Shown here: one piece after another, positions 2,399 to 36,817 of the stretch
Layout: every line of letters starts with the position of its first letter
How positions within the stretch are numbered: position 1 is the stretch's first letter
Assembly: GCA_944389435.1 (NCBI GenBank)
Contig: CALXMI010000037.1
Location: forward strand, 1 to 42,145
Direction: 5' to 3'
DNA from: an uncultured Opitutales bacterium
GTDB taxonomy: Bacteria; Verrucomicrobiota; Verrucomicrobiia; Opitutales; UBA9783
DNA: 42,145 bases
Made by a program: the position numbers and the translations under genes
Notes under the pieces: model-generated
What the model was told of the DNA's origin: nothing
What the model saw: the letters and a program-made list of their open reading frames with translations, nothing else
Database searches by the model: none

Positions 2399-2426
2399 AG
2401 ACTGCATTCAGTTGCGGTCTTTTTTA
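2399..2426 (+). terminator. Rho-independent terminator after the E1/JAMM genes
   Basis: The arms AGACTGC (2399-2405) and GCGGTCT (2414-2420) pair with one G-T wobble and are followed by a run of T. It separates the PRTRC-type genes from the radical SAM gene at 2439. Confidence 0.65.
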
Positions 2427-2438
2427 TTGGAGGAAATC

Positions 2439-7527: not shown

Positions 7528-7573
7528 CTATTTGAATGACGACGCTATGCGTCTTATTAAAGGAGGCAAATCA

Positions 7574-8476: not shown

Positions 8477-8502
8477 TGCTAATTTGAAAGGACAAATCAA
8501 TC

Positions 8503-13478: not shown

Positions 13479-14546
13479 TCAAATATAATTATTATCAAAC
13501 CGTTCCCAGTCAATGCCATGGTATAAGAATGTATCCAATGCCGCTCTTTCTTTAAGAAAAGTCGACGGAATCTCATCAATTATGTGCTTTAATATTTCTT
13601 TGTCTTGATTGAATTCATACTTCAAACATAAATTCAACCATTTTTCGGAAACTTGAACACAATCATTATATTTCACTAATGCAGAATTAGCTTCATCGGT
13701 AAGTGCAATTTCCCATTTCTCTATTATATATTCCATAGATGTTTTTATCATACACCTGTGTTCGTAAAGCTTCTTGGCAGCGCTCGTTAATCCTCTGAAC
13801 CAATCACAAAATTTATCTCCGTTAATCTCGGTTTGAAGAACTTCTTTAAAAGCGTCCAAACAAGCAATACCCATATAATGATAGTGGTGGTAACCATAAT
13901 CTCCTATTTCTTTTGGATGATGAATAATACATATCTTACCATCTAATTCTTTCCTAATTTTCAAATATGATTCAAAGGCACAATTATCCGGTTTATAGGT
14001 AGGATTCAGTTTCATTGCTGTGGCAGGATATTGAAAATTTATAGACAGTTCCATACCACGAAACGGTCTGTCTAAATAGTATTTTTTTATGTCTTCTATC
14101 GTGGCTTCTATATGTGAATAATCAATACATATGGTACGAAAGCCTCTTTCTGCAAGCCCCACAGAAATCAACTGCCCTTTACTATCGTCAAATCCGTAAA
14201 ATAGAACCTCATGATAATGATCTTCATTTATATATGGCTTAATATACATTATAATATAATATCCGCTTTTTAAGTTATCCTTTAAAGTATCTACTATATT
14301 GGGACTATTCATATCAAAGACTTTCAAAGGTTTTCTTTGCAAAATTTCTTCATGATATGACGGCGGATACATATTCATTTCTCCAAAATGAAAATTTCCG
14401 GCATCCGAATATAAATTATAATGTGAAGCTATCCAGTCCCTGTAATATTGCGATGTTTTTATAATAGCCAATCTATTGTATATCCAGCAATCTGTTACGG
14501 AATCAACATCTTCTATATGTATGGGTAGCTTTAATATCTCTTTCAT
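13479..14546 (-). CDS. BtrH/C39-like putative cysteine peptidase or acyltransferase
   Basis: A protein of 355 residues starting after AAAGGACAG. The N-terminal part has DCW (C20) and, about 90 residues on, YHEVLFYGFDD (H112). This spacing and the 'YYIIMYI...H..LFYGFDD' strand pair recall BtrH_N/papain-like folds in peptide and antibiotic clusters. The C-terminal 180 residues are helical and unrecognised. It has the same orientation as cluster 1 but is separated from it by about 0.9 kb of decayed sequence. Membership in the pathway, for example in leader removal or acyl transfer, is inferred; the catalytic pair is a guess from spacing. Confidence 0.72.
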   Translation of the reverse strand: MKEILKLPIHIEDVDSVTDCWIYNRLAIIKTSQYYRDWIASHYNLYSDAGNFHFGEMNMYPPSYHEEILQRKPLKVFDMNSPNIVDTLKDNLKSGYYIIMYIKPYINEDHYHEVLFYGFDDSKGQLISVGLAERGFRTICIDYSHIEATIEDIKKYYLDRPFRGMELSINFQYPATAMKLNPTYKPDNCAFESYLKIRKELDGKICIIHHPKEIGDYGYHHYHYMGIACLDAFKEVLQTEINGDKFCDWFRGLTSAAKKLYEHRCMIKTSMEYIIEKWEIALTDEANSALVKYNDCVQVSEKWLNLCLKYEFNQDKEILKHIIDEIPSTFLKERAALDTFLYHGIDWERFDNNYI

Positions 14547-14899: not shown

Positions 14900-15100
14900 T
14901 TAGTAAGTGCGAAATATTTTATTATTTTCTCCAAAAGTGAAATTGTATAATTTCGCATCTACAAAAAGACTGTAATGCGAAGCTATCCAATCTCTATAAT
15001 AGGGCGAATTTTTAGCTATAGTCAATCTGTTATATGTCCAACATTCTGTAACAGATTCTATATCATCAAATTTTAACGGCAACTCAAATGGATTAATCAC
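14900..15100 (-). pseudogene. Truncated paralogue of the BtrH-like gene
   Basis: A GTG at 15100 follows AAAGGAG. About 50 codons then match the start of the gene at 13479-14546: 'DIESVTECWTYNRLTIAKNSPYYRDWIASHYSLF' corresponds to 'DVDSVTDCWIYNRLAIIKTSQYYRDWIASHYNLY', including the CW pair. Similarity stops after FGEN and the frame soon ends, so only the N-terminal sixth of the protein remains. This is a decayed duplicate. Confidence 0.8.
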
Positions 15101-15464
15101 TATAAAACTCCTTTGTTGATAAAAATAAATCCGACATGCAAATGTATTGGTTTGAGACTTCTGGAACATAGTAATTTTTTACAAAGAAAAGCTCTCTTGC
15201 TGTTTTATTGACAAATATTTCTGCGGGATACGTTTTAAGCTAGAAATGTTTGCTGTTTTCTCCAAAGGCGACTTATATAATTTTTTATCTGCATATTCTG
15301 TAACGATTTATTCGTTGCTCATGCTTATTTGTGATTGTTGTTTATTTGTTATTTATAGCATCCTAAAATACAACTATTGTCAACATGCTGCCTATGTATA
15401 GCTCAACATGTCTTGAATACAGATGGCAATCATATTTTTATATCGAAGTGAGTACATATCCTCA
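15101..15464. other. Decayed region downstream of cluster 1
   Basis: Apart from the 15249-15311 fragment there is a short minus-strand open stretch at about 15105-15230 (coding for KTARELFF and NYYVPEVSNQ) that reads like the remnant of a protein, without a start. The plus-strand frame at 15385-15777 is antisense to the DUF2000 gene and has no ribosome site. Confidence 0.5.
15249..15311 (-). pseudogene. Second, internally deleted fragment of the BtrH-like gene
   Basis: The plus-strand stretch TTTTCTCCAAAGGCGACTTA and the following bases to about 15292 match the FGEN region of the fragment at 14900-15100. The adjoining ATTCTGTAACGATT matches its start region (ATTCTGTAACAGATT near 15050). The middle is missing, so this is a third copy reduced by deletion. 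Confidence 0.6.
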
Positions 15465-21535: not shown

Positions 21536-21640
21536 CTATGAGTTCGTCTTGCCGGTAGGACAACACGATGCAGCGCGAGCCTCAATAGCACGAAGTTCTT
21601 CTTCGTCATACACTACGATAGCAGGTGTTTCGTATACCAT
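21536..21640 (-). CDS. RiPP-like precursor peptide of cluster 1 (34 residues)
   Basis: The peptide opens MVYETPAIVVYDEEEL, has a helical middle (RAIEARAAS) and ends CCPTGKTNS. A strong ribosome site (GAGGAGGG) lies five bases before the ATG at 21640. It is the first gene after a near-consensus promoter and directly precedes the SPASM maturase, the usual precursor position. The acidic leader, the Ala-rich junction and a short core with paired cysteines support a modified peptide. It shares its pattern (P-x-[IV]-V, then EL, then an A-rich helix, S and C) with the second precursor at 22010. A C-terminal serine could be the kinase target. Confidence 0.85.
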   Translation of the reverse strand: MVYETPAIVVYDEEELRAIEARAASCCPTGKTNS

Positions 21641-21961: not shown

Positions 21962-21996
21962 GAAAAGGAACCGTCGACCTTACGGCCGACGGTTCC
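21962..21996 (-). terminator. Terminator of the regulator-precursor 2 transcript
   Basis: The arms GGAACCGTCG (21967-21976) and CGACGGTTCC (21987-21996) extend by a further near-complementary 3 bp around a TTAC loop. On the minus strand TTTTCT follows. It insulates the regulator-precursor unit from the cluster 1 promoter. Confidence 0.85.
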
Positions 21997-22009
21997 TCAG
22001 AAAATTTTA

Positions 22010-22120
22010 TTATCTGAAATCTCCGGCGAAACATTGTCCGGATCTTGCAGCTGCTTGAATATGTTTTGCCAACTCTTTGGCACTCAATTCTACAACCACA
22101 GGCTTAACCCATTTTTTCAA
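22010..22120 (-). CDS. Second RiPP-like precursor peptide (36 residues, TTG start)
   Basis: The peptide opens MKKWVKPVVVELSAKEL, has an AKHIQAAARSG middle and ends QCFAGDFR. The start is a TTG at 22120 that overlaps the stop of the regulator gene (TTGA), with AAGGGGGG seven bases upstream, so translation is coupled. It is followed at once by a terminator. The pattern 'W.KP.V..LSA.EL...I.A.A.SG.C' is typical of precursors handled by PqqD and radical SAM proteins. There is no enzyme gene downstream on this strand, so cluster 2, divergent on the other side of the regulator, is the likely maturation set. Cluster 1 enzymes are the alternative. Confidence 0.78.
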   Translation of the reverse strand: MKKWVKPVVVELSAKELAKHIQAAARSGQCFAGDFR

Positions 22121-23178
22121 CTAAATCCCCCCTTATCTTTATAATATTTTTCTAACATACCGCATAGGGTCTGAAAGTACTGTTTATTAATGCTGTAAAG
22201 AATGGTTCTCCCGCGATTTCGCGTCTTAAGCATACCAGCTTTTATCATTAAAGATAGATGGTAATAAGCATTTGTTCCAGTAAATCCGAATTCTTGCTCC
22301 AAATCTTTTATTGTTATTTCTTCTTTTTCATATATCAAGTTCAAAACCGAAACTCTGTTTGATTCAGAAATTGCGTTTCCGAAATTTTCAAGCTCTGGCA
22401 ATCTAAACTGAACAGTCAAATAATTGATATGTTCAATATAATCAATACCTAATAATATTACAACTTCATTTGAATAATAGTGTGTTTTAACACAATTCTT
22501 ATGATATAAGCAGAACGTGATGTAAATATCGTCAAAACAAGAAAAATCGCCTTTTTGATTTTTCGTTTGCATAAGTTGGTTTAAAACAATATCAAAATCA
22601 AAATTATCTTTAAGTTCACTCAATAATTTATGTTTTGCATCATACTTTTGAGATAACGCAAAACTTTTCTCCATCAACTCATATGACAGTTTGTGGATAA
22701 CCGTTTCAGGCTCTATAAAGAACGAATATAACGCACTTTTAATTTCACCGCTATATGTGGAATTTTTGATGAACTTATTAACATAGGTTATCGAGTCCTT
22801 ACATTTTATGACATCTTCTTCGCGAATATCCTTAAAGTAGAATCTAATAATATTCTCTTTTACCTTTTCGTGATTGGATAATTCTTCTTGCACCATAGAG
22901 AGATTATAATTTTCAAAAACAAAATGTGCTTTATATGGCTCGTAATAATATTTAGTTATTACATTCTTTTTGTCTTCTGTGAAATAGAAAAACAAAAGAA
23001 GCTCATCTGAAATCGGTGAAAATTCATTTAGTATTTTACTGTAATAGTCAGTATCTTCACTTGATTTACTATAGTTTATGAAATTTGTCAGACAATAATC
23101 CTTGTTAAAATTAAAAGCAAATAAGAAAAAAAGGTCGTATATAAAGCCGGGTTCATCAAGAAATTTAATATTTCTCAT
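22117..23178 (-). CDS. Winged-helix (ArsR-like C-terminal) regulator coupled to precursor 2
   Basis: A protein of 353 residues. The last 80 or so form a winged helix: ITIKDLEQEFGFTGTNAYYHL is the helix-turn-helix and TRNRGRTILYSI the wing. The first 260 residues are a large unrecognised helical domain, perhaps a ligand sensor. The ATG at 23178 has AAGGAGG eight bases upstream and is preferred over the GTG at 23181. It has a paralogue at 35873-36817 with the same layout. It is transcribed divergently from cluster 2 across a palindrome and is coupled to a precursor gene, so peptide-responsive autoregulation is plausible. Confidence 0.85.
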   Translation of the reverse strand: MRNIKFLDEPGFIYDLFFLFAFNFNKDYCLTNFINYSKSSEDTDYYSKILNEFSPISDELLLFFYFTEDKKNVITKYYYEPYKAHFVFENYNLSMVQEELSNHEKVKENIIRFYFKDIREEDVIKCKDSITYVNKFIKNSTYSGEIKSALYSFFIEPETVIHKLSYELMEKSFALSQKYDAKHKLLSELKDNFDFDIVLNQLMQTKNQKGDFSCFDDIYITFCLYHKNCVKTHYYSNEVVILLGIDYIEHINYLTVQFRLPELENFGNAISESNRVSVLNLIYEKEEITIKDLEQEFGFTGTNAYYHLSLMIKAGMLKTRNRGRTILYSINKQYFQTLCGMLEKYYKDKGGFS

Positions 23179-23203
23179 CACCGTATCCTCCTTAACTTCG
23201 TTA

Positions 23204-23640: not shown

Positions 23641-23859
23641 TTGCAGCAATCATTAAAGAAATCTCTACCCAAAACAGTAACCGAAGCAATAGTTTTTCCT
23701 AACAATAATGCATATTGGATATGCCCAAATTGCAAATGCTCTTTTGAAAGAGAGTACCAATCGTATTGTGACAGATGTGGACAACGATTAAAGTGGATCG
23801 CTTTAAGAAAAGTTAAATATATACTAATAAAACCACCAAATAATAAAAAATATTTTTAG
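23641..23859 (+). CDS. Small zinc-ribbon protein
   Basis: A protein of 72 residues starting at a TTG, with no convincing ribosome site. The middle has CPNC and CDRC, a zinc-ribbon (CPNCKCSFEREYQSYCDRCG). The tail is basic. Its role is unknown. The zinc ligands make it likely to be real even though the start is uncertain. Confidence 0.6.
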   Translation: MQQSLKKSLPKTVTEAIVFPNNNAYWICPNCKCSFEREYQSYCDRCGQRLKWIALRKVKYILIKPPNNKKYF

Positions 23860-23898: not shown

Positions 23899-24708
23899 AT
23901 GTTAACGATAGCCATACACGCACCATTCCAAACAAGCTTTACCATAAAAACCAACTGCAAAGAGTTAGCAAATGCAATTGTGTTAAGGCACGGTAAATAT
24001 GCAACTAAAAGTACAACTCAATCAGATATTACAATTATCGCTGAAAAAGAACAATCAGGTTATAGCATATACTTTAACGGCAATTCTGTAAAAACAAATG
24101 CTCCCTTAAAAAAAATAGAAGACATTATGTATGACAACCGTAAATATGAAGAAACAATATTTGCCGTTCACGGCGGTGCTGTAGAATACAATAATGGCGC
24201 ATATCTTGTTGTTGCCTCCACTACAAGCGGAAAAACCACCCTTACATCATATCTAGTTTCAAACGGTTTTGGATATATTACTGATGATTGCATACTTCTT
24301 GACCGTGAAAGCTTTAAAATATATCCGTTTACAACTCCCCTGCATTTGCGCAAAGGCGGTTATAACGCTCTGAAAGCTTTAGGTTGTGCCCCTGAAAGCT
24401 ATGATTTTTTAGACTCGGTTTCCATTAAAAGATATGTTTATACGCCTAATAATTCTGTTTCAAAACCGCTGCCGCTTAAAAAAATATTTTTTATCACAAG
24501 AACGGAAGATACGAATATGATAGAAGAAATGAATACCACAGAAAAAATAACCGCTCTTCTCAAATCGCCTATTACTGAATATGAAATTGGCGGCAGTTAT
24601 CTTTCGTTTATTTCCAAACTGTCCGCTATTCCCTGCAAAAGGCTTTATTACAGCAATATGGATTTTGTCGCCGAGGTAATTAAATATGAACAACAATCTT
24701 ATAATTAA
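23899..24708 (+). CDS. HPr-kinase-like peptide kinase of cluster 2
   Basis: A protein of 269 residues. The order FAVHGGAVE (H91), then VVASTTSGKTTL (105-115), then YITDDCILLDRE matches the HPr-kinase-like protein of cluster 1, but the first glycine of the P-loop is alanine. The ATG at 23899 has AGGGAG upstream and is chosen over 23863. It overlaps the next gene by 23 bases, giving a kinase plus PqqD pair as in cluster 1. It may phosphorylate a precursor serine or threonine; Ser27 of precursor 2 is a candidate. Confidence 0.8.
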   Translation: MLTIAIHAPFQTSFTIKTNCKELANAIVLRHGKYATKSTTQSDITIIAEKEQSGYSIYFNGNSVKTNAPLKKIEDIMYDNRKYEETIFAVHGGAVEYNNGAYLVVASTTSGKTTLTSYLVSNGFGYITDDCILLDRESFKIYPFTTPLHLRKGGYNALKALGCAPESYDFLDSVSIKRYVYTPNNSVSKPLPLKKIFFITRTEDTNMIEEMNTTEKITALLKSPITEYEIGGSYLSFISKLSAIPCKRLYYSNMDFVAEVIKYEQQSYN

Positions 24709-25405
24709 AATTCTGCCTGCTGTTTTAAAAACCAAAGGACAGGCAGAACTCACTGTAACAGGGACGAGCATGGAACCGACTCTAATTGAAGGTGATTTGA
24801 TAACAATCATAAAGTGTGATAATTACACAATCGGCGATATTCTTGTTTTTGACTATAAAAACGAGGGGCTTCTGGTTCACAGATTACTAAAAACATCCAA
24901 CCGATACTTCTGTAAAGGCGATAATTCTTTTAGGCTTGAAGATATGCCTGCAGAAAACATTATTGGAAAAGTCACAGCTGTAAACGGAGTTCCAATTGCC
25001 GTTTGGCAAAAATGGAAAATGGATTTGTCTTATGCTGTCAATCGATCATTTGTTAAATCAAAATATGATATTACAAATACAATGCAGACAGATATATATA
25101 AACTGTATTCAGCCTTAATTTTAGGAAAAGAGGAAAACAAAATGAATTACAAGAAAACAGATAAAATGGACTTTATTCTTTCAGATGAAACTTCACTTGC
25201 CGTATTTGATCCGGAAAGCAACAATACATACTTTTTTGACGAAACCGGGATAGACATTCTAAATTGTCTTGACATCCCTTGTGATATTGAAATGCTTTTA
25301 GATATGCTTTGCAATATTTATTCAGCATCCCCTGAAGATATCAGGGCAGATGTTGAAGAATTCTTAGCAGATACAGTAACCAAAGGAATTGTTGAAATAG
25401 TATGA
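24686..25405 (+). CDS. S26 (SipW-like) signal-peptidase domain fused to a PqqD domain
   Basis: A protein of 239 residues. The first part is peptidase-like: VTGTSMEPTLIEGD (S28), GLLVHRLLK (H65) and FCKGDN (77-80). This is the Ser-His arrangement of SipW/SEC11-type enzymes. The last 90 residues are PqqD-like (LAVFDPESNNTYFFDETGIDIL). No clear membrane segment is present, unusual for S26 enzymes. An in-frame ATG at 25142, preceded by AAGAGGAAAAC, could give the PqqD domain alone. The fusion would let one protein bind and cut the leader (inference). It overlaps the radical SAM gene by ATGA. Confidence 0.82.
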   Translation: MNNNLIIKILPAVLKTKGQAELTVTGTSMEPTLIEGDLITIIKCDNYTIGDILVFDYKNEGLLVHRLLKTSNRYFCKGDNSFRLEDMPAENIIGKVTAVNGVPIAVWQKWKMDLSYAVNRSFVKSKYDITNTMQTDIYKLYSALILGKEENKMNYKKTDKMDFILSDETSLAVFDPESNNTYFFDETGIDILNCLDIPCDIEMLLDMLCNIYSASPEDIRADVEEFLADTVTKGIVEIV

Positions 25406-26448
25406 ACATTAAAACCGTTTATGTTGAAATAACTAATTTCTGCAACTTAAATTGTATCACTTGCTATAACCGATCGGGCTTAAACTGTCAAAGAACAGAA
25501 TTGTCATTTGAACAAATCGAGAATATTATCAAACTTTTTACGCCTTTAGGATTGAAAAGATTTTTATTATCAGGTGGAGAACCTACACTGCATTCCGAAT
25601 TTGACAAAATTCTTGATTTAATCGATAAATATCCAAAAATTAATTTTGGTATTGTTACTAACGGAACAAATCATAATAAAAAGCTATTAGAATGCCTTAA
25701 CTCAAGAGACAATTTAAAACTTCAGATAAGTCTTGACGGTTCCTGTGAAGAAATAAATTCCAAAACCCGCGGTATAGGCAATTTCAAAAAGACCTTAAGC
25801 TTTGCCAAACAAATACGCACCGCTCATAATATTCCTCTGCTTAAAATGGTCATATCACAAGGCAATTATGACGATGTAGAAAATTTCTGCAATTTAGCGA
25901 TTTCATTAGGCTTTACACCTGAACTTGCATTTATATACAAATCCGGAAACGGGTGTGACGAATGGGGCACTAAAGAGCTTACATCCATACAAAAATTAAA
26001 AATATTGAAACTTGTCGAGCGCATTAATAAAGAAAGAAATGCAGGTATATTTCTTCCAATCTGCACCACAAAATGTCCGTTAGCAGAAGGAATCAATGAA
26101 CTTTCTTTCTGTATTAAAGTAGACGGTTCAATTCAACCATGTCAATCCCTTTACAGTGAAAAATATACTGTCGGAAATGTTCTTTTCTTCGATAAAAAGC
26201 TATTTTTACAGAATATAAATAATATTTCCGATTTAGCAAGGCAGCGTTGTGAACAAGACTATGGCTGTGAAAAATGTATGCTGAATGACATTTGCGGCAG
26301 AGGATGCATGGCAGAAGCTGTAAATCTTCACGATAATCCATTTGCAAGTGACGGCAACTGCGAATATAGAAAACAACAATTTATTAACTTTAATCTAAAA
26401 GGAGGTATATCTGTACTTGAAAAAGAAGACAAAACATTCCACGCTTAG
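25402..26448 (+). CDS. Radical SAM/SPASM peptide maturase of cluster 2
   Basis: A protein of 348 residues. CNLNCITC (C14, C18, C21) is the 4Fe-4S site and LLSGGEPTL binds SAM. The C-terminal SPASM region has FCIKVDGSIQPCQSL and CEKCMLNDICGRGCMAE, then a last cysteine in GNCEYR. It follows the peptidase-PqqD fusion directly (ATGA overlap) and overlaps the first ABC gene by 32 bases. Substrate and bond type are unknown. Precursor 2 (a single Cys30) is the nearest candidate. Confidence 0.9.
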   Translation: MNIKTVYVEITNFCNLNCITCYNRSGLNCQRTELSFEQIENIIKLFTPLGLKRFLLSGGEPTLHSEFDKILDLIDKYPKINFGIVTNGTNHNKKLLECLNSRDNLKLQISLDGSCEEINSKTRGIGNFKKTLSFAKQIRTAHNIPLLKMVISQGNYDDVENFCNLAISLGFTPELAFIYKSGNGCDEWGTKELTSIQKLKILKLVERINKERNAGIFLPICTTKCPLAEGINELSFCIKVDGSIQPCQSLYSEKYTVGNVLFFDKKLFLQNINNISDLARQRCEQDYGCEKCMLNDICGRGCMAEAVNLHDNPFASDGNCEYRKQQFINFNLKGGISVLEKEDKTFHA

Positions 26449-28228
26449 CAACAATTTATACATACTGAAACAAATACATATTGCAAGCCGCGGAAGAATA
26501 TTTTTTGAACTTTCGAGTATTATACTAAACACCGTTTCAAATATACTACTTGATGTTTATATGTTCAAATATATTATTAATGGTATTCAAAAGGGCTTAG
26601 ATTTTAAAAGACTTGTCGGTTTTATCCTGATTATTACGGCGTTTCATATTTTCACCGCTACCGTTGTCGACTATTTTTGGGAAAAATTCGCACCTGTCTC
26701 GAATCAAAAAATATATAGCCATATTCAAAAAAACTTGTTCGAAAAGGCCTCGTCTGTCGAGTTTGCCTGCTTTGAAGACCCTGACTTTTACGATAAATAT
26801 GTTAAAGCAATAAGCGAAGCATACAATAGAACCAATGAGGTTCTAAGGTCGTTGTGCGACATTGTATATTTTATTTTTAACGCTTTTGCTACCTCGTTTA
26901 TCATATTTACAATTGATCCCGTGCTGATAGTATTCGCGCTGATACCCTTTATTGTAAGTATTCTGTTCGGGAAAAGGCTTAACAAAGTGCGATACAATTA
27001 CACTATGGAAATGCAGGAAAAATCCAGAAAACGCGACTATGTAAAAAGGGTGTTTTACCTTGCCGACTACGCAAAGGAAATGCGGCTCACGAATATAAAC
27101 AGGGTTATGTTCAAAAAATTTTACGAGGCGATAAAGGAGCTTAAGGGGGTTATTAAAAAGCACGGGCTTAAGGTTGCGTTATTGGATTATTTGTTCATAG
27201 CGGTTAATGATATTATCGTTTACCTCGGCGCTATTCTATATTCCGCCTATAAAACCCTTGTTTCAAAAACAATGCTTTACGGCGACTGCGTGGTTGTTAT
27301 AAACGGAATAAACAATGTCGCGTGGTCACTGCGCAATATGGCTGATGTTTTTATTCAGTTTCAGAATCACTCGCTTTATATCGACAATCTGCGCTATTTC
27401 CTTGAATACAAGCCCGCAATTTATGAAAACAGGGAGGGACTCGACCCGCCCGATACCTGCGCGCTCACCCTTAAAAACGTAAGCTTTAAATACGCAGGTC
27501 AGGAAGATTATTCCCTTAAAAATATTAATTTCACAATAAAGCAGGGCGAAAAAATCGCCTTGGTCGGTCACAACGGCGCGGGTAAAACCACCCTTGTTAA
27601 GCTGTTAATGCGGCTTTACGATGTGACCGAGGGCGAGATACAGCTAAACGGCAGACCGATAAAGGAATACAAGCTTAAAGGCTACCGTAATCTGTTCTCG
27701 GTTGTGTTTCAGGATTTCAAGGTCTTCGCCGTATCGGTTTTGGAAAATATTTTGCTTAAAGCAGATATTACTAAGGAAGAAAAAAATCGCGCGGTAAGCG
27801 GTATGAAGGACGCGGGTATTTATGACAAGGTAATGTCCCTTGAAAAGGGCTATGAAACCGTGCTTACAAAGGAATTTGACGAAAACGGAGCGGTGCTTTC
27901 GGGCGGAGAGACCCAGAAAATCGCTATATCAAGGGTGTTTGCAAGGGACTGCCCCATCGCGATTTTAGACGAGCCTTCAAGTGCGCTTGACCCGCTGGCG
28001 GAGTACGCCATGTACGAGGCTATGATGAATGCGTGCAGGGACAAGGCGGTAATCTTTATTTCCCACAGGCTTTCCTCCGCGGTTTTGGCGGACAGGGTTT
28101 ACCTTATGGAAAAGGGAGAAATAATTGAAAGCGGCACCCACCGAGAGCTGCTCGAAAAGGGCGGCAAATACGCCGATATGTGGAGCAAGCAGGCGGAAAA
28201 ATACCGTAAAAAGGAGGAAGATGTATGA
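26417..28228 (+). CDS. ABC half-transporter 1 of cluster 2
   Basis: A protein of 603 residues starting at TTG after AAAGGAGG. The membrane domain spans about residues 30-320 and the ATPase has Walker A GHNGAGKTT (about 383), signature LSGGETQK, Walker B IAILDEPSSALD and SHRLSS. No C39 peptidase domain is present. It forms an ATGA-coupled pair with the next gene, probably a heterodimeric exporter. By eye, GC content rises inside the gene near 27000. Confidence 0.92.
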   Translation: MKKKTKHSTLSNNLYILKQIHIASRGRIFFELSSIILNTVSNILLDVYMFKYIINGIQKGLDFKRLVGFILIITAFHIFTATVVDYFWEKFAPVSNQKIYSHIQKNLFEKASSVEFACFEDPDFYDKYVKAISEAYNRTNEVLRSLCDIVYFIFNAFATSFIIFTIDPVLIVFALIPFIVSILFGKRLNKVRYNYTMEMQEKSRKRDYVKRVFYLADYAKEMRLTNINRVMFKKFYEAIKELKGVIKKHGLKVALLDYLFIAVNDIIVYLGAILYSAYKTLVSKTMLYGDCVVVINGINNVAWSLRNMADVFIQFQNHSLYIDNLRYFLEYKPAIYENREGLDPPDTCALTLKNVSFKYAGQEDYSLKNINFTIKQGEKIALVGHNGAGKTTLVKLLMRLYDVTEGEIQLNGRPIKEYKLKGYRNLFSVVFQDFKVFAVSVLENILLKADITKEEKNRAVSGMKDAGIYDKVMSLEKGYETVLTKEFDENGAVLSGGETQKIAISRVFARDCPIAILDEPSSALDPLAEYAMYEAMMNACRDKAVIFISHRLSSAVLADRVYLMEKGEIIESGTHRELLEKGGKYADMWSKQAEKYRKKEEDV

Positions 28229-30000
28229 AAGAAAAGGGCAGCGTACTGTTTATGATTAAGCAAGCCGTAAAATATGTTCCCTCCTTCTGTCTCTTTACAG
28301 TTGCGGAGGGTGTTGTTTGGGGCTGTATACACTCCTTTACAAGTACGCTCTTTATAAAGGCGCTGTTTGACAGAATAGAAAGCGGCGTCCCCTATTCTGA
28401 AATACTCCTGCTTGTCCTTGCTATGGCGGTTTTTCTTATTTCAGCCTACATATTCCACGAATGGTACTGGCAGTTTATAGAGCCGAAAGCGCGGCAGGAG
28501 CTGCACAAAAAAATGCAGGAGCAGCTATACAAAAAAGCGGCTTCCATAGACCTTGCCTGCTATGACCGCCCCGACTTTTACAACGACTTTGTCTGGGCGA
28601 TTAACGAGGCGGACTCAAGAACAATCGCAATATGTGAGGACATAGGCAAAATAATAAACCGCCTTATCACATCGGCGGTTATAATAGGCGTTTTATTCAC
28701 GATAGATTTGTGGATTGTGGCGGCGGTGCTTTTTTCGGTTGTCTTCAGCGTAGTTTTGCAAAGACTTATTACAAAAATTTATTTTAAGCGCGACAACGAG
28801 CTTAAACCCTTTCAACGCAGGGCTGAATATATAAGCAGGGTTCACTATCTTGCGGACTATGCAAAGGAAATCCGAATGAGCGAAGCCGAGGACTTACTCT
28901 TAAAGAATTTTGACACGGCTGTAGGAAGCAATATTTCAATAACCAAGTCCTACGGCAATAAGCTGTTTTTTCTGAATCTTACAAGAACCACCTTTACCGC
29001 CGTAATGTTTGACGCGGTTATTACAATACTGCTACTTTATAAGATGATGATAGAAAAATCCGTAACTCTCGGCGGATTTGCCGCCACATTCAGCGCTATG
29101 TGGAAGCTTTTTTGGACGCTTAATAATCTTATGGATTATTTTGCAAAATTCAAGGAGCATAAGCTTTATGCTAACAAGTTCAGGGTGTTTCTTAATTACG
29201 AGCCAACCGTGTGCGATAAGGAGGGTTGTACCGAATTAACCGCCCCGTTTAAGACCCTTGAGCTTAAAAATGTCTCCTTTGCCTACCCTGAAGCCGAAAA
29301 AAACATAATAAACGGCATAAATATGACCGTAAAGGCGGGGCAAAAAATCGCCCTTGTTGGCTACAACGGTGCGGGCAAATCAACCCTTGTAAAACTGCTT
29401 TTAAGACTATATGATGTTTCAGGCGGCGATATTTTTATAAACGGCAAGAGCATTAAGGATTACACCCTTTGCTCCTACCGAAACAAATTCGGTACCGTTT
29501 TTCAGGATTTTCAGCTCTACGCCGCCGATATTGCCGAAAACGTCCTTACCGACGAATATTCCGAAGAAGACCAGTCCCGCGTACTTGAAGCCCTTAAAAA
29601 CAGCGGATTTGAAGAAAGGCTTTCTTCCCTTAAGGAGGGTATTCACACACCGCTTACAAAGGAATTTGACCAAAGCGGAATTAACCTTTCGGGCGGCGAG
29701 GCGCAAAAAGTCGCAATATCAAGGGTGTTTGCAAAGGACTGCGAGATAGTTATTTTAGACGAGCCCTCAAGCGCACTCGACCCTATGACCGAATACGAAT
29801 TAAACAATACTCTGATGACCGCCCTTGACAAAACGGTTATAATAATTTCCCACCGCCTTTCTACGACCCGTATGGCGGACGTTATCTATATGCTTGAAAA
29901 CGGCGAGATTATTGAACAGGGCAGTCACGACGAGCTTATGCAAACGGGCGGCAAATACGCCGAAATGTTTTTAAAGCAGGCGGAAAAATATAATTTTTAG
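28225..30000 (+). CDS. ABC half-transporter 2 of cluster 2
   Basis: A protein of 591 residues coupled by ATGA to the previous gene, with AAGGAGG upstream. It has an N-terminal membrane domain, Walker A GYNGAGKST (about 378), signature LSGGEAQK, Walker B IVILDEPSSALD and SHRLST. Both partners have an intact ATPase core. It is clearly related to its neighbour and to the cluster 1 exporter. Its base composition is GC-richer than that of the genes on either side. Confidence 0.92.
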   Translation: MKEKGSVLFMIKQAVKYVPSFCLFTVAEGVVWGCIHSFTSTLFIKALFDRIESGVPYSEILLLVLAMAVFLISAYIFHEWYWQFIEPKARQELHKKMQEQLYKKAASIDLACYDRPDFYNDFVWAINEADSRTIAICEDIGKIINRLITSAVIIGVLFTIDLWIVAAVLFSVVFSVVLQRLITKIYFKRDNELKPFQRRAEYISRVHYLADYAKEIRMSEAEDLLLKNFDTAVGSNISITKSYGNKLFFLNLTRTTFTAVMFDAVITILLLYKMMIEKSVTLGGFAATFSAMWKLFWTLNNLMDYFAKFKEHKLYANKFRVFLNYEPTVCDKEGCTELTAPFKTLELKNVSFAYPEAEKNIINGINMTVKAGQKIALVGYNGAGKSTLVKLLLRLYDVSGGDIFINGKSIKDYTLCSYRNKFGTVFQDFQLYAADIAENVLTDEYSEEDQSRVLEALKNSGFEERLSSLKEGIHTPLTKEFDQSGINLSGGEAQKVAISRVFAKDCEIVILDEPSSALDPMTEYELNNTLMTALDKTVIIISHRLSTTRMADVIYMLENGEIIEQGSHDELMQTGGKYAEMFLKQAEKYNF

Positions 30001-30013
30001 GAAGTGTACGAAT

Positions 30014-31201
30014 ATGGACAAGGAAAAAATTTTAGAAGTATTAGGAAATATCATTGATATAAATAAAGAACAGCTTTTAAAAACTTCAGTTGATACGAAA
30101 CTGACCGATTTGGGGCTTACTTCAATTCAATTCATTCAATTTATTGTGGCTATTGAGGAAGAATTTGAAATTGAAATTTTAGACAGCGATCTTATAATGA
30201 CAAATTTCGAAACGGTAGAAATGCTTTTCAGTACATTAGAAAAGTATTTCACCCCCAAAAGCACTTTAAAAAAAGTACTTATTTGTGATTGCGATAATGT
30301 ATTATGGTACGGCATTTCAGGCGAAGAAGAAATATACATAGATGCTATAATCCTGAAATTTCAAGAAACCTTAATAGAATTATACAACCGCGGAATACTT
30401 ATATGCCTTTGCAGTAAAAATGAGCCGGAAAATATAGAAACGGTATTTAACTCTCTTGAAATGCCGCTGAAAAAGAATCATATCTTAATATCAAAAATAA
30501 ATTTGACGGATAAAGCCACAAACATAAAAGAAATTGCTCTTGAATTAAATCTTTCTGCCGATAGCTTCGTTTTTGTTGACGACAGCAAATATGAGCTTGA
30601 CCTTGTATCTTCTATAATTCCCGATATTACAACCGTCCTTGCGGATTATTCTAATTGCGATTTTATAGAAAAAATCAAAGGATTTTTTGACGGGAGTTCT
30701 ACAGATATTAACCGTACACAACAGTACAGAGATCAAAAAGAACGTGAAAAAGAAAAGCAGCGTTATGCAAGCGCTGAAGAATTTAATGCATCGCTCAAGA
30801 CCGAGATAAAATGTGAAACGGCGTCACCTGCTCAAGCAGCACGAATATCTGAATTATCACAGCGAACCAATCAATTTAATCTTTCCGATGTAAGATATAC
30901 CGAAGAGGAAATTAATTATTTTATCAGGGATGAAGGATATTGCGTGTATGTCCTTTCCGCTTCAGATAAATACGGCGATATGGGATTGGTTGGTGCCGCG
31001 GTGGTACGCAAAACAGAAAATCCTGTCATTATAGGTTTTTTTCTTTCTTGTCGGGTCTTCGGAAGAGGTTTTGAAGAACATTTTCTAAATCAAATCAAAA
31101 GCAATTTTGCTGTTCCAATGTATGGTATTTATAAAAGAACAGATAAAAACAAGAGGTTTGAAGATTTTTACTCTAAAAATGGAGTTGAAATATATGAATA
31201 A
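30014..31201 (+). CDS. ACP-FkbH protein (HAD-IIIC glyceryl-ACP synthase-like)
   Basis: A protein of 395 residues. Residues 1-80 are an acyl carrier domain with the pantetheine serine in DLGLTSIQF (S37). Residues about 85-225 are a HAD domain with DCDNVLWYG (D92, D94) and VFVDDSKYE. The rest is a GNAT-like domain. FkbH proteins take a three-carbon unit from 1,3-bisphosphoglycerate and load it on an ACP as glyceryl-thioester. Here the ACP is fused in. No ketosynthase or condensation gene is nearby, so the glyceryl unit may be passed to the peptide (inference). It overlaps the next gene. Confidence 0.85.
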   Translation: MDKEKILEVLGNIIDINKEQLLKTSVDTKLTDLGLTSIQFIQFIVAIEEEFEIEILDSDLIMTNFETVEMLFSTLEKYFTPKSTLKKVLICDCDNVLWYGISGEEEIYIDAIILKFQETLIELYNRGILICLCSKNEPENIETVFNSLEMPLKKNHILISKINLTDKATNIKEIALELNLSADSFVFVDDSKYELDLVSSIIPDITTVLADYSNCDFIEKIKGFFDGSSTDINRTQQYRDQKEREKEKQRYASAEEFNASLKTEIKCETASPAQAARISELSQRTNQFNLSDVRYTEEEINYFIRDEGYCVYVLSASDKYGDMGLVGAAVVRKTENPVIIGFFLSCRVFGRGFEEHFLNQIKSNFAVPMYGIYKRTDKNKRFEDFYSKNGVEIYE

Positions 31202-32247
31202 ATATATCGAAGCCGTTCGCGATTTAGCAAACGAAAAACAAACAAGCTTTGATATTTCTGAAATATTATACAATCATGGTTGTATCTATCTTCTTTCAAA
31301 AATAAAGGGCAAGAATAAATATACAGATAGATTAAAAGCAGAGAATTTATTAAATAAAATATGTATTAACGAAAGATATAAAACCTGTTCTGCAGTCTTC
31401 CGCGAATTTAAAGAAAACAATATCTCCTATGCCGTAATAAAGGGCGCTGTATTATCTGCTGCGGCATATAATAATCCGTTTTGTCGACAATCAGGAGACA
31501 TAGATATACTTATCAACCGAAAGGATATTGATAAAATAAAAGAAATAATGCTTCGAAACGGCTTTGTCCAAGGAAAAATTACCGAAAATGGAGTTGAGCC
31601 TTTCTCTCGCAAGGAAATATTATTCCAGACCGCTATGTCTCACCAAACTGCTCCCTTTGTTAAAAAAAACAAACAATAAAATATGTCCATATATTAATGT
31701 TGATCTTAATTTTGATATAATGTGGGGTGAAAGTGAAACAAAGGCAGATATGGAATTTGTTCTTCAAAACACTATGGAAACGGCAATACTGGGCGTGATA
31801 TTTAATAAGCTCTCTCCGGAAATGGAATTCATATCGCTTTGCCTGCACCACTATAAAGACTTAAATTCCATTTATTTGCTATATGAGCGTGGATTAACAT
31901 TAAGCCATTTCTGCGACATATATTTTTTCATTAAGAATTGTAACATAGATTCAGAAGCTCTTTATAATTATTGTTTAAAATTGAATGTCGGCAAATATGT
32001 TTACTATTGCTTATACTACACCAATCTTATATTTGACGATGAAATCATAAAAAAATATATGTTATTATTGCATTCAACTGAATCAGATGCAATTCTTAAT
32101 TCCTTCGGCCTTTCCGATAAAGAACGGCAAAGCTGGGATATTGACTTTTTTACAAGGCTGTTTGATTCAAATATTAGTCAATATTTGGAAAATTCACTTT
32201 CTGAATCTGATTTGAAGAAAATAATTATAAATCAACAGCTTATGTAG
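31194..32247 (+). pseudogene. Frameshifted nucleotidyltransferase (NTP_transf_5-like)
   Basis: The first frame (31194-31679) has the nucleotidyltransferase core: ISYAVIKGAVLSAAAY, then QSGDIDILI with the metal-binding DxD. It stops at TAA after a run of eight A (31662-31669). The +1 frame continues the protein (NVDLNFDIMWG onward to 32247) as a natural C-terminal half. With seven A the two would join into one frame of about 350 codons, the usual family size. The family occurs beside HPr-kinase-like genes in paeninodin-type clusters. It may be a pseudogene, a sequencing error, or be rescued by slippage at the A-run. Confidence 0.8.
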
Positions 32248-32270: not shown

Positions 32271-35200
32271 TTGAAAAAGTTTATTACAGTACTAATAATA
32301 ATTCTATCATCTATTTGTATATTTGCAACATTGACCAAGAGTACTTCTTTTAATATTGAACCCACAAATTTAAGATTTAGAAATGATTATTCTTCTATGT
32401 ACGATCAGTTTCCTCCTAACCATGTTAAAATAATAAAATTGGAAATAATAGTTCATTTAAATAATACTGCTATTGATATTTCAGGAGAGTATATCAAGAA
32501 TCAAACTGATTCTAATACCAAGAAAAGAATTGATGATTACATTGATTCATACTATATTCCTTTTGCTAATTATGATAATACAATCCTTTGTTTTTCCGAA
32601 CGCACTTTATATATAATAACCGCAAATAATTACGAATCAATTAACACATTTGAATTTATATATAATGATAATAGTTTGAGAATATATGACGAATTTGGTC
32701 ATTGTGATGTTTATAACTGTACATTCAAATACAACGATGAGGATTTTTTCTCTAATAACAGTCAAATCTCCAATAATATTAATGATGGCACCAATACCTC
32801 AACCGGAGAACTGAAACCTCAAGCAATACAGGAATCAGAATCTAAATTCATTTCATTTTTAAAAAATATTATTATTCCATGGCTTTGGGAAATAATATGT
32901 GCCGTGCTTTTTAGCATTTTAATTTGTGTTTTCATTTTCAGCAGAATGTCTTTTATCTTATATCGCAAATATAAAAAGAATTTAAAAACAAGCATCTTCC
33001 CACGAGAGCATACATGGTTTGGTAATAATACGCCCACTGAAATTTATATATCAACTAAAGTATTTATCGGTGATACATGTCAAGAATACGGCTTACTGGA
33101 GTATTTTTCTTCAGCTATTATGCAAGATGTATCAAAATATGTAATTCTCGGCAATGCAGGAGAAGGTAAAACATTTTCACTTTCAAGATTGATATTAGCC
33201 TTGTTGGATTGTTTTTCAATAGATAAAAATAATAAAAACGCTCGTAAAAAAATCAAAAAACTAATTCCTGTATTATTAAATTTTTCGCAATTGAGCGATT
33301 GTAAAAGCAACGATGACTTAATTAATGTGATATATAAAAACATTTCAGATTCAGTCAAGCTTAAAAGCAATATCATAAATAAGATTATATATTTCCGTTA
33401 TAAATCAAAAATGATTAATACTATAGAGCATTACTTAAATTTAGGCAGATTTATTCTTTTAATTGATGGATATGATGAAATAGCCAATACAGAAGATCGA
33501 CTTCATACCTCTAAAATGCTTATGGATTTTATGAATGAATTTGAAAAGTGTAACTTTATTATGACATCAAGAACACAAATTTACGAAAAAGAAAAATTCC
33601 TAAATATACCACCAGAAAATACATTATATCTCTCACCGCTAACAAAAGAACAAATACATAAATTTGTTTCAAAATGGAATTTTCCGAACGGAAAATCTTC
33701 TTCTGATTTATTTCAAAGAATCGTTAATACCAAACAATTAGAGGGAATAATTACTAATCCGTTGTTGCTGACAATGGTTACTCATACATATAGTAATTCA
33801 AATATTTCAACTTTCAATAGTAAAACCGAGTTATATAAAAGCTGTTGTAATTGTTTATTGTCCGAATGGGAAAACAATAAAGTATTTTTCAAAAGAATTA
33901 TAAGATATAATACTATAAAAAATCCAAATATGAAAATAGAATTATTATCCTCGCTTGCATATGAACTGTATTTATCAAATTCTCCAAGTCTTGAAGAGGA
34001 AAGAGTCCTTCAAATTTGGGCTAATCATCCGAAAGAAAATTCCTATTTTCACGGTCAAACTCAAAATGTGTTAGATGATATAATTAACCAAAGCAGTATT
34101 CTTGAGCGTACAAACGACAGCATTAGATTTCGTCATAAATCTTTTTATGAATATTTTATTGCATTATATTTCTCACAAAACAATTATGACATAAAAAAAT
34201 TGTATGAAAATATATTGAGTAATTTAAACATTTTATTCTTTTACTTCTCATTAGTACCGGACGAAAAAATTGTTACAGATTTTATATTGAATAATTCCGA
34301 ATATAAAAAATTAATATGCGATATTATTCTTGAAAGACATATAAAATATAATACTGTCATTGAAAACATAGTAGATCCAATTATCGACAAAACTTCTTTT
34401 ATCAATTTAACGGATGTTCAGACATTAGGGTACATTGCTAAACAATATCCCGTGGTCGCACAAAAAATAGAAGATGTATTGTTAAAAAAGCTTTCATCTA
34501 CTAATAATAAAACCGAAAGAATCAATGTCCTTATCGGTCTTTTGATTTTTTGCAACAAAGAACTTTTATCTTCAATATTTGATAAGTATATATCAAAAAT
34601 CGATATAGAGTACCTTGTGGAATATTCAGGAGAAAGCATTAATGATTTCGCATGTTTAATTGTACAACTGTTAGAGGATAATGATCACAAGATTAACTTT
34701 ATTGAAAGTTTGGCGAAATCGTTTAGGTTTGATGCAATTTACAATATTTATAATAACAGTTCAAACGAAATAAAAGATTTTGCAGTAATTGGATTATTAT
34801 ACATGGGAAAAGAACCGGAATTGCTAAATTGGTTGTATACAAAAAAATTTGCTGACAGCATTACTCCAGATGAACAAAACAAAGTTAATAATATTAAAGA
34901 AAATTATGGTTGGGAAAACGATAGACTAAGTGATGAAGCACTTACAAATCTTTACACCCTAACTTATTTAAGTTCGCAAGTAATTCTAAACGGATTTCGT
35001 CCCAATATGGAATTAGTTGAAAACAAGTTGGCTTTTTTACTGTGTTTATTAATCAGCGATTCAAAAGGGAAATTGTACTATGAATTATTGAATATTGATA
35101 ACTTATATATTAAATCGTATGTAGAACTGACTTATCATTGGAATCTGATAAAAAGAAGTAAAAAGAAAAGCAATTTTTTAAGAAAAGGAATTATAGACAC

Positions 35201-35669
35201 TGTTAGTATTAATAGAATAATAATCGCATTGGTTCTCTCTTCAATTCTTATACAAATGCTTATTATAGTCATTAACTGCAGTAATTTAAATGAATTATCG
35301 AATGAAGGTTGGATATTTGTTAATATTAATAGCAATTCATTATTTCCTTTTAATACATTATATATATTAATGGTTGGGTTGTTTTTCATGGTTATAAGGA
35401 GTTTTAATGAACTATTAAAAAAATTTGAGTATAACTTTTTTACAATTGCTGCTTCTTTTGCTTTTTCTTTAATAACATTCATATTATTTTGCATCGTAAT
35501 ATATAATATAACTTTCAGATTGTTAACACTATTATCTATGATAATGGTAAGCATTTTAGAAATAATTAAACATAAAAACAATTATCCCTCTTTGAAAGAA
35601 CCTCAATACAGTAAAATAATTAACTTTCTTAATGATGAATATCATTTTAATGACATTCATATAGGATAA
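32271..35669 (+). CDS. Membrane-anchored NACHT-type NTPase
   Basis: A protein of 1132 residues starting at TTG after TTAGGA. Order: an N-terminal hydrophobic segment (4-22), an extracytoplasmic-looking domain (25-195), a membrane segment (200-225), then a NACHT core with Walker A LGNAGEGKT (293-301), Walker B FILLIDGYDE (394-403) and FIMTSRTQ. Helical repeat-like sequence follows, then about four C-terminal membrane segments (from about residue 985). NACHT proteins are STAND NTPases, several of which defend bacteria against phage. Sensing of a surface signal, immunity to the cluster 2 peptide, or anti-phage defence are all possible. Its composition is very AT-rich. Confidence 0.85.
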   Translation: MKKFITVLIIILSSICIFATLTKSTSFNIEPTNLRFRNDYSSMYDQFPPNHVKIIKLEIIVHLNNTAIDISGEYIKNQTDSNTKKRIDDYIDSYYIPFANYDNTILCFSERTLYIITANNYESINTFEFIYNDNSLRIYDEFGHCDVYNCTFKYNDEDFFSNNSQISNNINDGTNTSTGELKPQAIQESESKFISFLKNIIIPWLWEIICAVLFSILICVFIFSRMSFILYRKYKKNLKTSIFPREHTWFGNNTPTEIYISTKVFIGDTCQEYGLLEYFSSAIMQDVSKYVILGNAGEGKTFSLSRLILALLDCFSIDKNNKNARKKIKKLIPVLLNFSQLSDCKSNDDLINVIYKNISDSVKLKSNIINKIIYFRYKSKMINTIEHYLNLGRFILLIDGYDEIANTEDRLHTSKMLMDFMNEFEKCNFIMTSRTQIYEKEKFLNIPPENTLYLSPLTKEQIHKFVSKWNFPNGKSSSDLFQRIVNTKQLEGIITNPLLLTMVTHTYSNSNISTFNSKTELYKSCCNCLLSEWENNKVFFKRIIRYNTIKNPNMKIELLSSLAYELYLSNSPSLEEERVLQIWANHPKENSYFHGQTQNVLDDIINQSSILERTNDSIRFRHKSFYEYFIALYFSQNNYDIKKLYENILSNLNILFFYFSLVPDEKIVTDFILNNSEYKKLICDIILERHIKYNTVIENIVDPIIDKTSFINLTDVQTLGYIAKQYPVVAQKIEDVLLKKLSSTNNKTERINVLIGLLIFCNKELLSSIFDKYISKIDIEYLVEYSGESINDFACLIVQLLEDNDHKINFIESLAKSFRFDAIYNIYNNSSNEIKDFAVIGLLYMGKEPELLNWLYTKKFADSITPDEQNKVNNIKENYGWENDRLSDEALTNLYTLTYLSSQVILNGFRPNMELVENKLAFLLCLLISDSKGKLYYELLNIDNLYIKSYVELTYHWNLIKRSKKKSNFLRKGIIDTVSINRIIIALVLSSILIQMLIIVINCSNLNELSNEGWIFVNINSNSLFPFNTLYILMVGLFFMVIRSFNELLKKFEYNFFTIAASFAFSLITFILFCIVIYNITFRLLTLLSMIMVSILEIIKHKNNYPSLKEPQYSKIINFLNDEYHFNDIHIG

Positions 35670-35872: not shown

Positions 35873-36817
35873 TCATTCGCTGTATTTATACAATTTCTTA
35901 CACAGCTTTTTAAAATACTCTTTATTAATACTGTAAAAGACAGTTCTCCCTTCATATCTTGTGTTTACCATACCGGGTTTTGTCATTGACGACAAATGAT
36001 AATAGGCATTAGTGCCGCTTAAACACAATTGCTGCTCAATATCCTTAATCGTTATTTCTCCGCTTGTTTTCATCATCTCTAACAGCTTCAGTCTGTTGAT
36101 TTCCGTAAAAACATATCCAAAATCTTTTAAATCGTAGCGATTTTCGGTATCTATATTATTACTGTAATCCTCGCTTATCAATAATAAATAATTGCCGCTT
36201 TTCAGAGGAAAAACTTTCAATACTTCCTTGTCCAATAAAGAAACTGCACACACGGTATTATCAGAGATTTTATCAGTTAAATTCAGTTTATCCAACACTT
36301 TGGGTTCTAAAATACCCTGGTGAATTTTTGAAATGCTGAACGAATGATTTTCATACTTTCTTTTTAACTGTAAATTTAATTCCAACAGAGTCCTCATTAA
36401 CTCGTGTACAGTTTTAACAGGCTCAATAAATAACGAATATAGAGAGCTTTTTAATTCATCGGGATATTTCGACTTTAAAATTAACTTGTTTAAATCATAT
36501 AAAGACCTGAAATCGTTAAAAACAAATTTAATATTAACATCGCCGAAATAATAATCAATAATTCTATTTACGGAATTTTCACAGTCAATAAGCTTATTTT
36601 GAATAACCTCAATATTTTCATTGATCAATAATTCCTCATAGCTTTCAGCAAAAATATTCTGCATAAAGGAATACCCTTTGTCGCTCTTATAAAAGAAGGG
36701 CAGAATACAATCAGATACGCCTTTCCAGTCCAACCATTTATTTTCGTATTTGCTGTTAAAGTGTTCGGATAGAACATATATCATATCATAATAAATTCCA
36801 ATATCAGAATGAATCAT
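35873..36817 (-). CDS. Paralogous winged-helix regulator 2
   Basis: A protein of 314 residues. The C terminus ITIKDIEQQLCLSGTNAYYHL and RYEGRTVFYSINKEYF matches that of the regulator at 22117. The middle SLYSLFIEPVKTVHEL also matches. It is about 40 residues shorter at the N terminus. Its ATG has GGAGG nine bases upstream. Unlike regulator 1, no precursor-like gene follows; a bidirectional terminator does. It might control the plus-strand NACHT region, the resolvase or cluster genes; the target is unknown. Confidence 0.85.
   Translation of the reverse strand: MIHSDIGIYYDMIYVLSEHFNSKYENKWLDWKGVSDCILPFFYKSDKGYSFMQNIFAESYEELLINENIEVIQNKLIDCENSVNRIIDYYFGDVNIKFVFNDFRSLYDLNKLILKSKYPDELKSSLYSLFIEPVKTVHELMRTLLELNLQLKRKYENHSFSISKIHQGILEPKVLDKLNLTDKISDNTVCAVSLLDKEVLKVFPLKSGNYLLLISEDYSNNIDTENRYDLKDFGYVFTEINRLKLLEMMKTSGEITIKDIEQQLCLSGTNAYYHLSSMTKPGMVNTRYEGRTVFYSINKEYFKKLCKKLYKYSE

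Follow-up and report, generated by a model that had tools for sequence, protein, structure and literature searches.

A conserved gene cassette for a probable new family of decorated ribosomal peptides, apparently carried by a mobile element of gut Clostridia

The window analysed here, a stretch of 42,145 nucleotides (contig CALXMI010000037.1, assembly GCA_944389435.1) binned with an uncultured Opitutales bacterium, carries seven plus-strand genes that are tightly packed and mostly overlapping within positions 23899-32247. Together with a 36-residue peptide encoded nearby, this cassette is read, with a probability of roughly 0.7, as the pathway of a new family of ribosomally synthesised and post-translationally modified peptides (RiPPs), whose product, by inferred chemistry, would be modified by a radical SAM enzyme, probably phosphorylated on serine, further decorated and exported. 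The cassette appears to sit on a mobile element of gut Clostridia and to build a small, heavily modified peptide. Two features by which a RiPP locus is recognised were both found, namely a precursor with leader and core that co-occurs with modifying enzymes, and a RiPP recognition element (RRE) scoring above its cut-off. The cassette, its peptide and the adjoining regulators are laid out as follows.

23899..24708, plus strand: HPrK-like peptide kinase; best model HprK_rel_A, E 2.9e-7, below the model cut-off
24686..25405, plus strand: S24/S26 peptidase-PqqD fusion, a predicted leader-binding leader peptidase; PqqD E 1.5e-11 and Peptidase_S24 E 3.5e-7, both above cut-off
25402..26448, plus strand: radical SAM/SPASM peptide maturase; Radical_SAM E 1.4e-21
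26417..28228, plus strand: ABC exporter permease-ATPase 1, without peptidase domain; ABC_tran E 2.4e-31; 72% (L046) and 65% (L044) identity
28225..30000, plus strand: ABC exporter permease-ATPase 2, without peptidase domain; ABC_tran E 4.3e-30; 72% (L046) and 63% (L044) identity
30014..31201, plus strand: fusion of an acyl carrier protein (ACP) with FkbH (HAD-IIIC plus C-terminal transferase), predicted glyceryl-S-ACP synthase; PP-binding E 1.1e-8, FkbH TIGR01686 210 bits against a cut-off of 147
31194..32247, plus strand: NTP_transf_5 nucleotidyltransferase-like gene, frameshifted; two frames match profile positions 41-124 and 137-248, E 2.8e-17 and 1.2e-11
22010..22120, minus strand: precursor peptide of 36 aa with a TTG start; each of the seven further cassette genomes has a homologue
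21965..21998, minus strand: intrinsic terminator directly 3' of the precursor gene, 15 bp stem with 9 GC pairs; divides the precursor from the other cluster
22117..23181, minus strand: regulator, 354 aa, helical N-terminal domain and C-terminal ArsR-like winged helix; weak Pfam HTH_20/HTH_5 matches
35873..36817, minus strand: paralogous regulator; 64% identity to L046 9220-10161

Profile matches bear out every gene named in the original prediction (HPrK-like kinase, NTP_transf_5-like gene, SPASM radical SAM enzyme, peptidase-PqqD fusion and ACP-FkbH), which nevertheless left out the two full-length ABC exporters, took no account of the NTP_transf_5 frameshift and placed its interval so that the precursor fell outside it. 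The frameshift is a single nucleotide at a run of eight A (31662-31669); in L046, L044, L043 and L045 the gene is unbroken, at about 350 residues or more, and comparison with these relatives ruled out two separate NTP_transf_5 genes, as the frames had first been read.

Conservation of the cassette and its precursor peptide

A scan of genome contigs for ACP-FkbH recovered four loci (L043, L044, L045 and L046) in metagenome-assembled genomes (MAGs) labelled Clostridia, Clostridiales or Woodwardibium. Their gene order is HPrK, S26-PqqD, radical SAM, the two ABC genes in two of the loci, ACP-FkbH and NTP_transf_5, at about 38-82% identity. The family to which the L046 genome belongs contributed two further cassettes, L083 and L084, and its class contributed L136, which is more distantly related; in L136 the regulator, precursor, HPrK, S26-PqqD, radical SAM, NTP_transf_5, ACP and FkbH form one gene run. 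The same gene set, with S26-PqqD, FkbH and NTP_transf_5, whose co-occurrence had been proposed as a check, is present in seven further genomes, which is far beyond chance and marks the cassette as conserved. L084 encodes peptidase and PqqD domain as separate, adjacent genes; the other seven loci have the fusion. ACP and FkbH form a single protein in six loci, and neighbouring genes encode them in L084 and L136. The two exporters are present in the window, L044, L046 and L136, and are not adjacent in L043, L045, L083 and L084.

The precursor was found from small frames near the relatives: a 36-aa peptide of L045, encoded between FkbH and NTP_transf_5, is 58% identical over aligned columns to the window peptide. 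A model of these two sequences gave one clear match in each of the three other cassette genomes (E 4e-19, 3e-9 and 1e-4), and this first step was blind. All three matches lie on contigs other than the cassette's, each directly after a homologue of the regulator at 22117-23181. A widened model added matches in L083 and L084, again next to such a regulator, in L136/L138, and in further regulator-peptide pairs of genome G905 (L099, L132 and the degenerate L100); built partly from the cassette genomes' own sequences, it measures co-occurrence and is not a blind test. Of 398 genomes from a single family, only the five with a cassette yielded a full-length match; one other match was weak and partial and contains a stop.

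The window precursor consists of the leader MKKWVKPVVVELSAKELAKHIQAAA, which includes a W-x-x-P motif and ends in a predicted A-A-A cleavage site, and the 11-residue core RSGQCFAGDFR. Its ribosome-binding site is strong (AAGGGGGGA), and its start overlaps the regulator stop as TTGA. The nearest homologue, L049, differs at 27 nucleotides, 17 of them in the third position of a codon, a pattern expected for a protein under selection. Across the family, each of the ten precursors combines a W-x-x-P leader with a core of 9-15 residues; the leader ends with A, G or V at -3, A, S or M at -2 and A at -1, which usually gives A-x-A. The core pattern [RW]-S-x(1-3)-C...R holds in eight of the ten, serine is conserved at core position 2, and the C-terminal residue is R in nine and W in one. 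When five precursors were searched against NCBIfam no model matched, and none reached a Pfam cut-off. On sequence, predicted folds and comparison between genomes, the peptide at 22010-22120 is very likely the substrate of the cassette.

Two other candidates were set aside. A 72-aa zinc-ribbon-like frame (23641-23859) showed no homologue beside the relatives, and the peptide at 21536-21640 (minus strand), which belongs to a neighbouring first cluster, does not match the precursor family, has its own promoter and precedes its own radical SAM enzyme. That cluster-1 candidate precursor, MVYETPAIVVYDEEELRAIEARAASCCPTGKTNS, has the ribosome-binding site GGAGGG and a promoter at 21815-21787 (minus strand) with a 12/12 match to the sigma-70 consensus (TTGACA-17-TATAAT), and it directly precedes a PapB-like radical SAM enzyme, PqqD, an HPrK-like kinase and an ABC exporter. 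Elsewhere, on contig 27 of G1143, two more small peptides with W-x-K-P leaders, MKKWKKPEIEHIGRDELEDIITAAGCSSFVDICQEGY and ...MKDWHKPFMQSMSQSEVDNAVVLNACSNHSCLARLTRII (L140 and L142), adjoin a different regulator and a radical SAM fragment match.

The enzymes might instead have another target, such as a surface glycan or a protein; in polysaccharide loci FkbH and NTP_transf_5 may have a role of this kind. FkbH genes do lie in unrelated exopolysaccharide-type loci (L037, L038), and one locus, L025, holds HPrK, PqqD, S26 and NTP_transf_5 together without a radical SAM enzyme. Such a target is improbable given that the cassette co-occurs with the precursor family, that the leader and cleavage motifs of the precursor match the cassette enzymes, and that the L136 gene run includes the precursor.

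Predicted biosynthesis and relation to known pathways

The peptidase-PqqD fusion gave a confident AlphaFold2 model (pLDDT 90). In Foldseek searches, its N-terminal half matched SipA, LexA, LepB and SpsB, and its C-terminal half matched PqqD and TbiB1 with bound leader (TM score by target 0.84). The models support a signal-peptidase-fold serine protease with conserved serine and histidine in the S26 half, and an RRE of the kind that binds W/Y-x-x-P leaders in the PqqD half. Residues S28 and H65 and a KGDN motif are invariant in the family, which by analogy suggests a Ser28/His65 dyad as in archaeal and SipW-type signal peptidases; the peptidase half scores 51.0 bits against TIGR02228, just below the cut-off of 51.85. 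Small residues at -3 and -1 are typical of signal peptidase I substrates, and the precursor lacks a hydrophobic signal sequence. The fusion is proposed as the leader peptidase because the -3/-1 sites fit signal peptidase I and the cassette encodes a signal-peptidase fold joined to a leader-binding domain. The W-x-x-P leader likewise fits recognition by PqqD or lasso B1 proteins, the TbiB1-leader complex being among the top fold matches. On these models, leader binding and cleavage at A-x-A are both probable functions of the fusion. Enzymes of the signal peptidase, S26 or S24 type do not feature in a 2023 review of leader proteases in RiPP pathways (PMC10885120).

The other enzymes retain the residues expected of their families. 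The radical SAM proteins share an invariant CxxxCxxC motif and the SPASM set C-x2-C-x5-C-x3-C...C, and the conserved core cysteine is a natural candidate for a radical SAM crosslink. Invariant in the ACP-FkbH proteins are S37, DCDNVLW, a VDDS-type motif and the cysteine of SCR; known FkbH enzymes form glyceryl-S-ACP from 1,3-bisphosphoglycerate. In the kinase, H91, K112, D129 and D130 are invariant in five members and, judged from residue order and P-loop context, would correspond to the His-Lys-Asp-Asp motif that is essential in lasso kinases (PMC9266682). PsmN, the nucleotidyltransferase of the pseudomycoidin pathway, is required for the hexose on a serine phosphate that the kinase installs (PMC9266682). 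By analogy with this pair, which acts on one serine, Ser2 of the core is the proposed kinase target, with about an even chance of being right.

The steps may be arranged as follows. The 36-aa precursor would be made together with its regulator and presented by the RRE to the radical SAM/SPASM enzyme, which would probably crosslink the core or modify a C-H bond in it near the conserved cysteine. The RRE would likewise present it to the HPrK-like kinase for the likely phosphorylation of Ser2, and NTP_transf_5 would decorate the phosphate as PsmN does in pseudomycoidin. ACP-FkbH would make glyceryl-S-ACP from glycolytic 1,3-bisphosphoglycerate and so supply a glyceryl group, which may, quite tentatively, end up on the peptide. 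Cytosolic cleavage by the S26 half behind the A-x-A-type site would follow, and a product of 9-15 residues would leave through the paired ABC exporter.

Several points weigh against this pathway. The precursor is often not beside the cassette (G731, G732 and G734 have it on a different contig, and in L083 about 2.5 kb separate the two), and in the window it sits on the far side of the regulator; its pairing with the cassette consequently rests on co-occurrence, and some other peptide could be a substrate too. The frameshifted window copy of NTP_transf_5 may be partly decayed or misassembled. The conserved serine lies near the N-terminus of the core, as opposed to the C-terminal serine of lasso kinase substrates, and no obvious conserved transferase of glyceryl from ACP to peptide was found among the cassette loci. 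Product, cleavage and modification steps are predictions from genes and modelled folds.

A BtrH-like protein was considered as the glyceryl transferase and rejected, since it is neither conserved (it occurs in L044, L045 and the other cluster of the window) nor above the BtrH_N cut-off. The window encodes one such protein, outside all Pfam families, and a second, truncated one (13479-14546 and 14900-15169, minus strand), and others adjoin NTP_transf_5 in L044 and L045, with BtrH_N E 0.025, below the cut-off, for the L044 protein. It is noted here as a candidate acyl-ACP transferase.

The closest known systems are lasso clusters of the paeninodin and pseudomycoidin type (PadeK, ThcoK, PsmK; PsmN), with which the cassette shares an HPrK-like kinase with H, K, D and D, a nucleotidyltransferase-type enzyme, a B1/PqqD-like RRE, a W/Y-x-x-P-type leader and an ABC exporter. 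That HPrK-like and NTP_transf_5 genes are known lasso partners, as had been predicted, agrees with the literature (PMC7533575, PMC9266682). The predicted lack of a lasso cyclase and B2 protease also held: searches with PF00733 found no cyclase near the window cassette or its seven homologues, and PF13471 gave no match above cut-off in seven genomes. Here an S26-type peptidase, a SPASM radical SAM enzyme and ACP-FkbH stand in place of, or in addition to, these enzymes. The conserved serine is at core position 2, in contrast to the C-terminal serine targeted by paeninodin-type kinases, and the precursors have no threonine at -2, the penultimate leader position it occupies in lasso peptides, with the A-x-A site taken as the cleavage point. 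Despite decoration genes in common with lasso clusters, the cassette is not one of them.

A degenerate or reduced lasso cluster, with cyclase and B2 protease supplied in trans from elsewhere in the genome, could also account for the lasso companions (kinase, NTP_transf_5 and PqqD/B1-like RRE; PMC7533575; PMC9266682) and for TbiB1 as a top structural match. It is nevertheless largely refuted already and has next to no likelihood. Asn_synthase (PF00733) has no match in the whole bin (G000) or in G731, and in the other cassette genomes it does match, but on other contigs or, in G888, at a distance of about 80 kb. PF13471 has no match in the whole bin G000 and none above cut-off in seven genomes tested. 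Moreover, what the cassettes conserve in place of the lasso enzymes is another kind of leader peptidase together with a SPASM radical SAM enzyme, and most cores lack the Asp or Glu at position 7-9 that a lasso ring requires.

Other RiPP systems resemble the cassette in part. Those for pyrroloquinoline quinone (PQQ; PqqA/PqqD/PqqE) and mycofactocin (MftA/MftB/MftC) also combine a short precursor with a PqqD-type RRE and a SPASM radical SAM enzyme, and the PqqA leader carries W-x-K-P. The cassette differs from them in its kinase, NTP_transf_5, ACP-FkbH and dedicated leader peptidase, and in its core; its radical SAM enzyme scores best with the mycofactocin maturase TIGR03962, at 108 bits, far below the cut-off of 265, and matches to PQQ models likewise fall far short of theirs. 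The NCBIfam systems SynChlorMet (ScmC, PqqD-like ScmD, radical SAM ScmE/F) and HPr-rel-A (HprK_rel_A, PqqD_rel_X) share HPrK-like and PqqD-like proteins, and SynChlorMet alone of the two shares a radical SAM enzyme. By contrast, the kinase and radical SAM enzyme here fall far below the curated cut-offs, PqqD_rel_X reaches 26.9 bits against 35, and these models name no S26 fusion, FkbH or NTP_transf_5. Streptococcal RaS-RiPPs (streptide, tryglysin), under Rgg/SHP control, are also radical SAM RiPPs tied to a regulator and a small peptide gene (PMC13361665); in those systems Rgg is the regulator and the SHP pheromone is a different peptide from the RiPP, whereas here the RiPP-type precursor itself adjoins an ArsR-like regulator.

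No NCBIfam or Pfam model and no open-licence paper describing either the combination or the precursor was found. The open-licence papers that feature HPr kinase, nucleotidyltransferase and PqqD together concern lasso peptides and do not mention radical SAM enzymes; none was found with FkbH in such a context, though an unseen description is possible. With no cyclase near the homologous cassettes and no matching description, the suggestion that the locus may define another peptide class stands.

The regulator and possible biological roles

A homologue of the regulator directly precedes the precursor in L049, L050, L051, L083, L084, L099, L132 and L138. Regulator and precursor are adjacent in nine of ten cases and overlap or are translationally coupled in several, the window being one of the coupled cases. 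In G905 there are, besides the L083 pair, further pairs on separate contigs (L099, L132 and the degenerate L100). The regulator model has a pLDDT of only 59. A homologue of the paralogous regulator (35873-36817) also follows the cassette in L046; no precursor-like frame was found downstream of the window copy.

Adjacency in nine of ten cases, together with several pairs per genome and one cassette, suggests signalling, with a bacteriocin as the main alternative. Each regulator would sense its neighbouring peptide as a pheromone, and one shared cassette would mature and export all peptides of the genome, a role that falls somewhat short of even odds. It concerns biological function alone and is compatible with the proposed biosynthesis. 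The arrangement recalls Rgg-SHP or PlcR-PapR, with a different regulator fold and modified peptides. The adjacency of the pairs, with overlap or coupling in several, their multiplicity in G905 beside one cassette, and cores that are short (9-15 aa) and differ between pairs all speak for it. Against it, the N-terminal domain of the poorly modelled regulator is not a recognised peptide receptor, regulators also occur in bacteriocin operons, and the L045 precursor lies inside the enzyme run.

Alternatively, the product may be a narrow-spectrum antimicrobial, a bacteriocin-like RiPP that favours the host of a mobile element, with the regulator as an ordinary control gene; this is a possibility held at well under even odds. 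Location on an element with cargo genes that resembles an integrative and conjugative element (ICE), and two dedicated exporters in the window, L044, L046 and L136, point that way. No immunity gene was recognised, however, the exporters are not adjacent in the other four loci, and repeated regulator-peptide pairs are unusual for bacteriocins.

The fullest version of the signalling idea is unlikely to hold in all its parts: a family of radical-SAM-crosslinked pheromones of 9-15 residues, decorated with phosphate and glyceryl groups, cut free in the cytosol by an RRE-fused enzyme that resembles a signal peptidase, served by one cassette per several regulator-peptide pairs, and spread among gut Clostridia by conjugative elements.

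Genomic setting and significance

After the cassette, the window and L046 share a regulator, a serine recombinase and conjugation genes, which places both on the same kind of ICE-like element. The bin of the window is 0.95 Mb; its relatives lack the cassette, and the closest cassette homologues are in Clostridia MAGs. The GC content of the window is 37%, against 41-44% in five sampled other contigs of the bin. The S26-PqqD fusion, sought in the window's own order, class and phylum, gave only partial single-domain matches; searches of viral contigs gave none, and plasmid and phage records only generic FkbH, ABC or radical SAM matches. The contig may be mis-binned or horizontally acquired, which leaves the cassette analysis unaffected.

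Directly after the cassette, 32271-35669 encodes a NACHT-type NTPase of 1132 aa that has membrane segments and may serve the element in defence or regulation. At 112-1733 and 2412-3497, in the left, ICE- or plasmid-like part of the contig, Prok-JAB-like and ThiF (E1-like) genes precede a further radical SAM protein and a DUF6094 methyltransferase.

Related gene sets occur in other combinations. In G1343, L137 4559-18722 is a variant cluster with HPrK, radical SAM, a separate S26, NTP_transf_5, FkbH and ACP, together with an apparent YcaO enzyme (7442-8833) and an AMP-ligase-like gene, from which the decoration set seems common to several RiPP classes. G733 has a second cluster beside its cassette (L090 4356-17808 and L045 361-5634), with FkbH, ACP, NTP_transf_5, two ABC exporters, several radical SAM enzymes, two HPrK-like genes and an S26 peptidase-radical SAM fusion (L045 3227-4846). 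In the very different, GC-rich genome G585, L025 16103-19874 has HPrK-like, PqqD-TPR, S26 peptidase and NTP_transf_5 genes in a row, with no radical SAM or lasso genes seen nearby.

Identification of the substrate turns what the original prediction had called an unusual mix into a coherent RiPP pathway. Two of its proposed features were found nowhere described: a leader peptidase of signal-peptidase fold fused to an RRE, and the supply of a C3 unit, bound to an acyl carrier, to a ribosomal peptide. With the precursors identified, substrate, cleavage site and reaction order become directly testable. If the peptides are signals, they would represent a new modified-peptide communication system in gut Clostridia.

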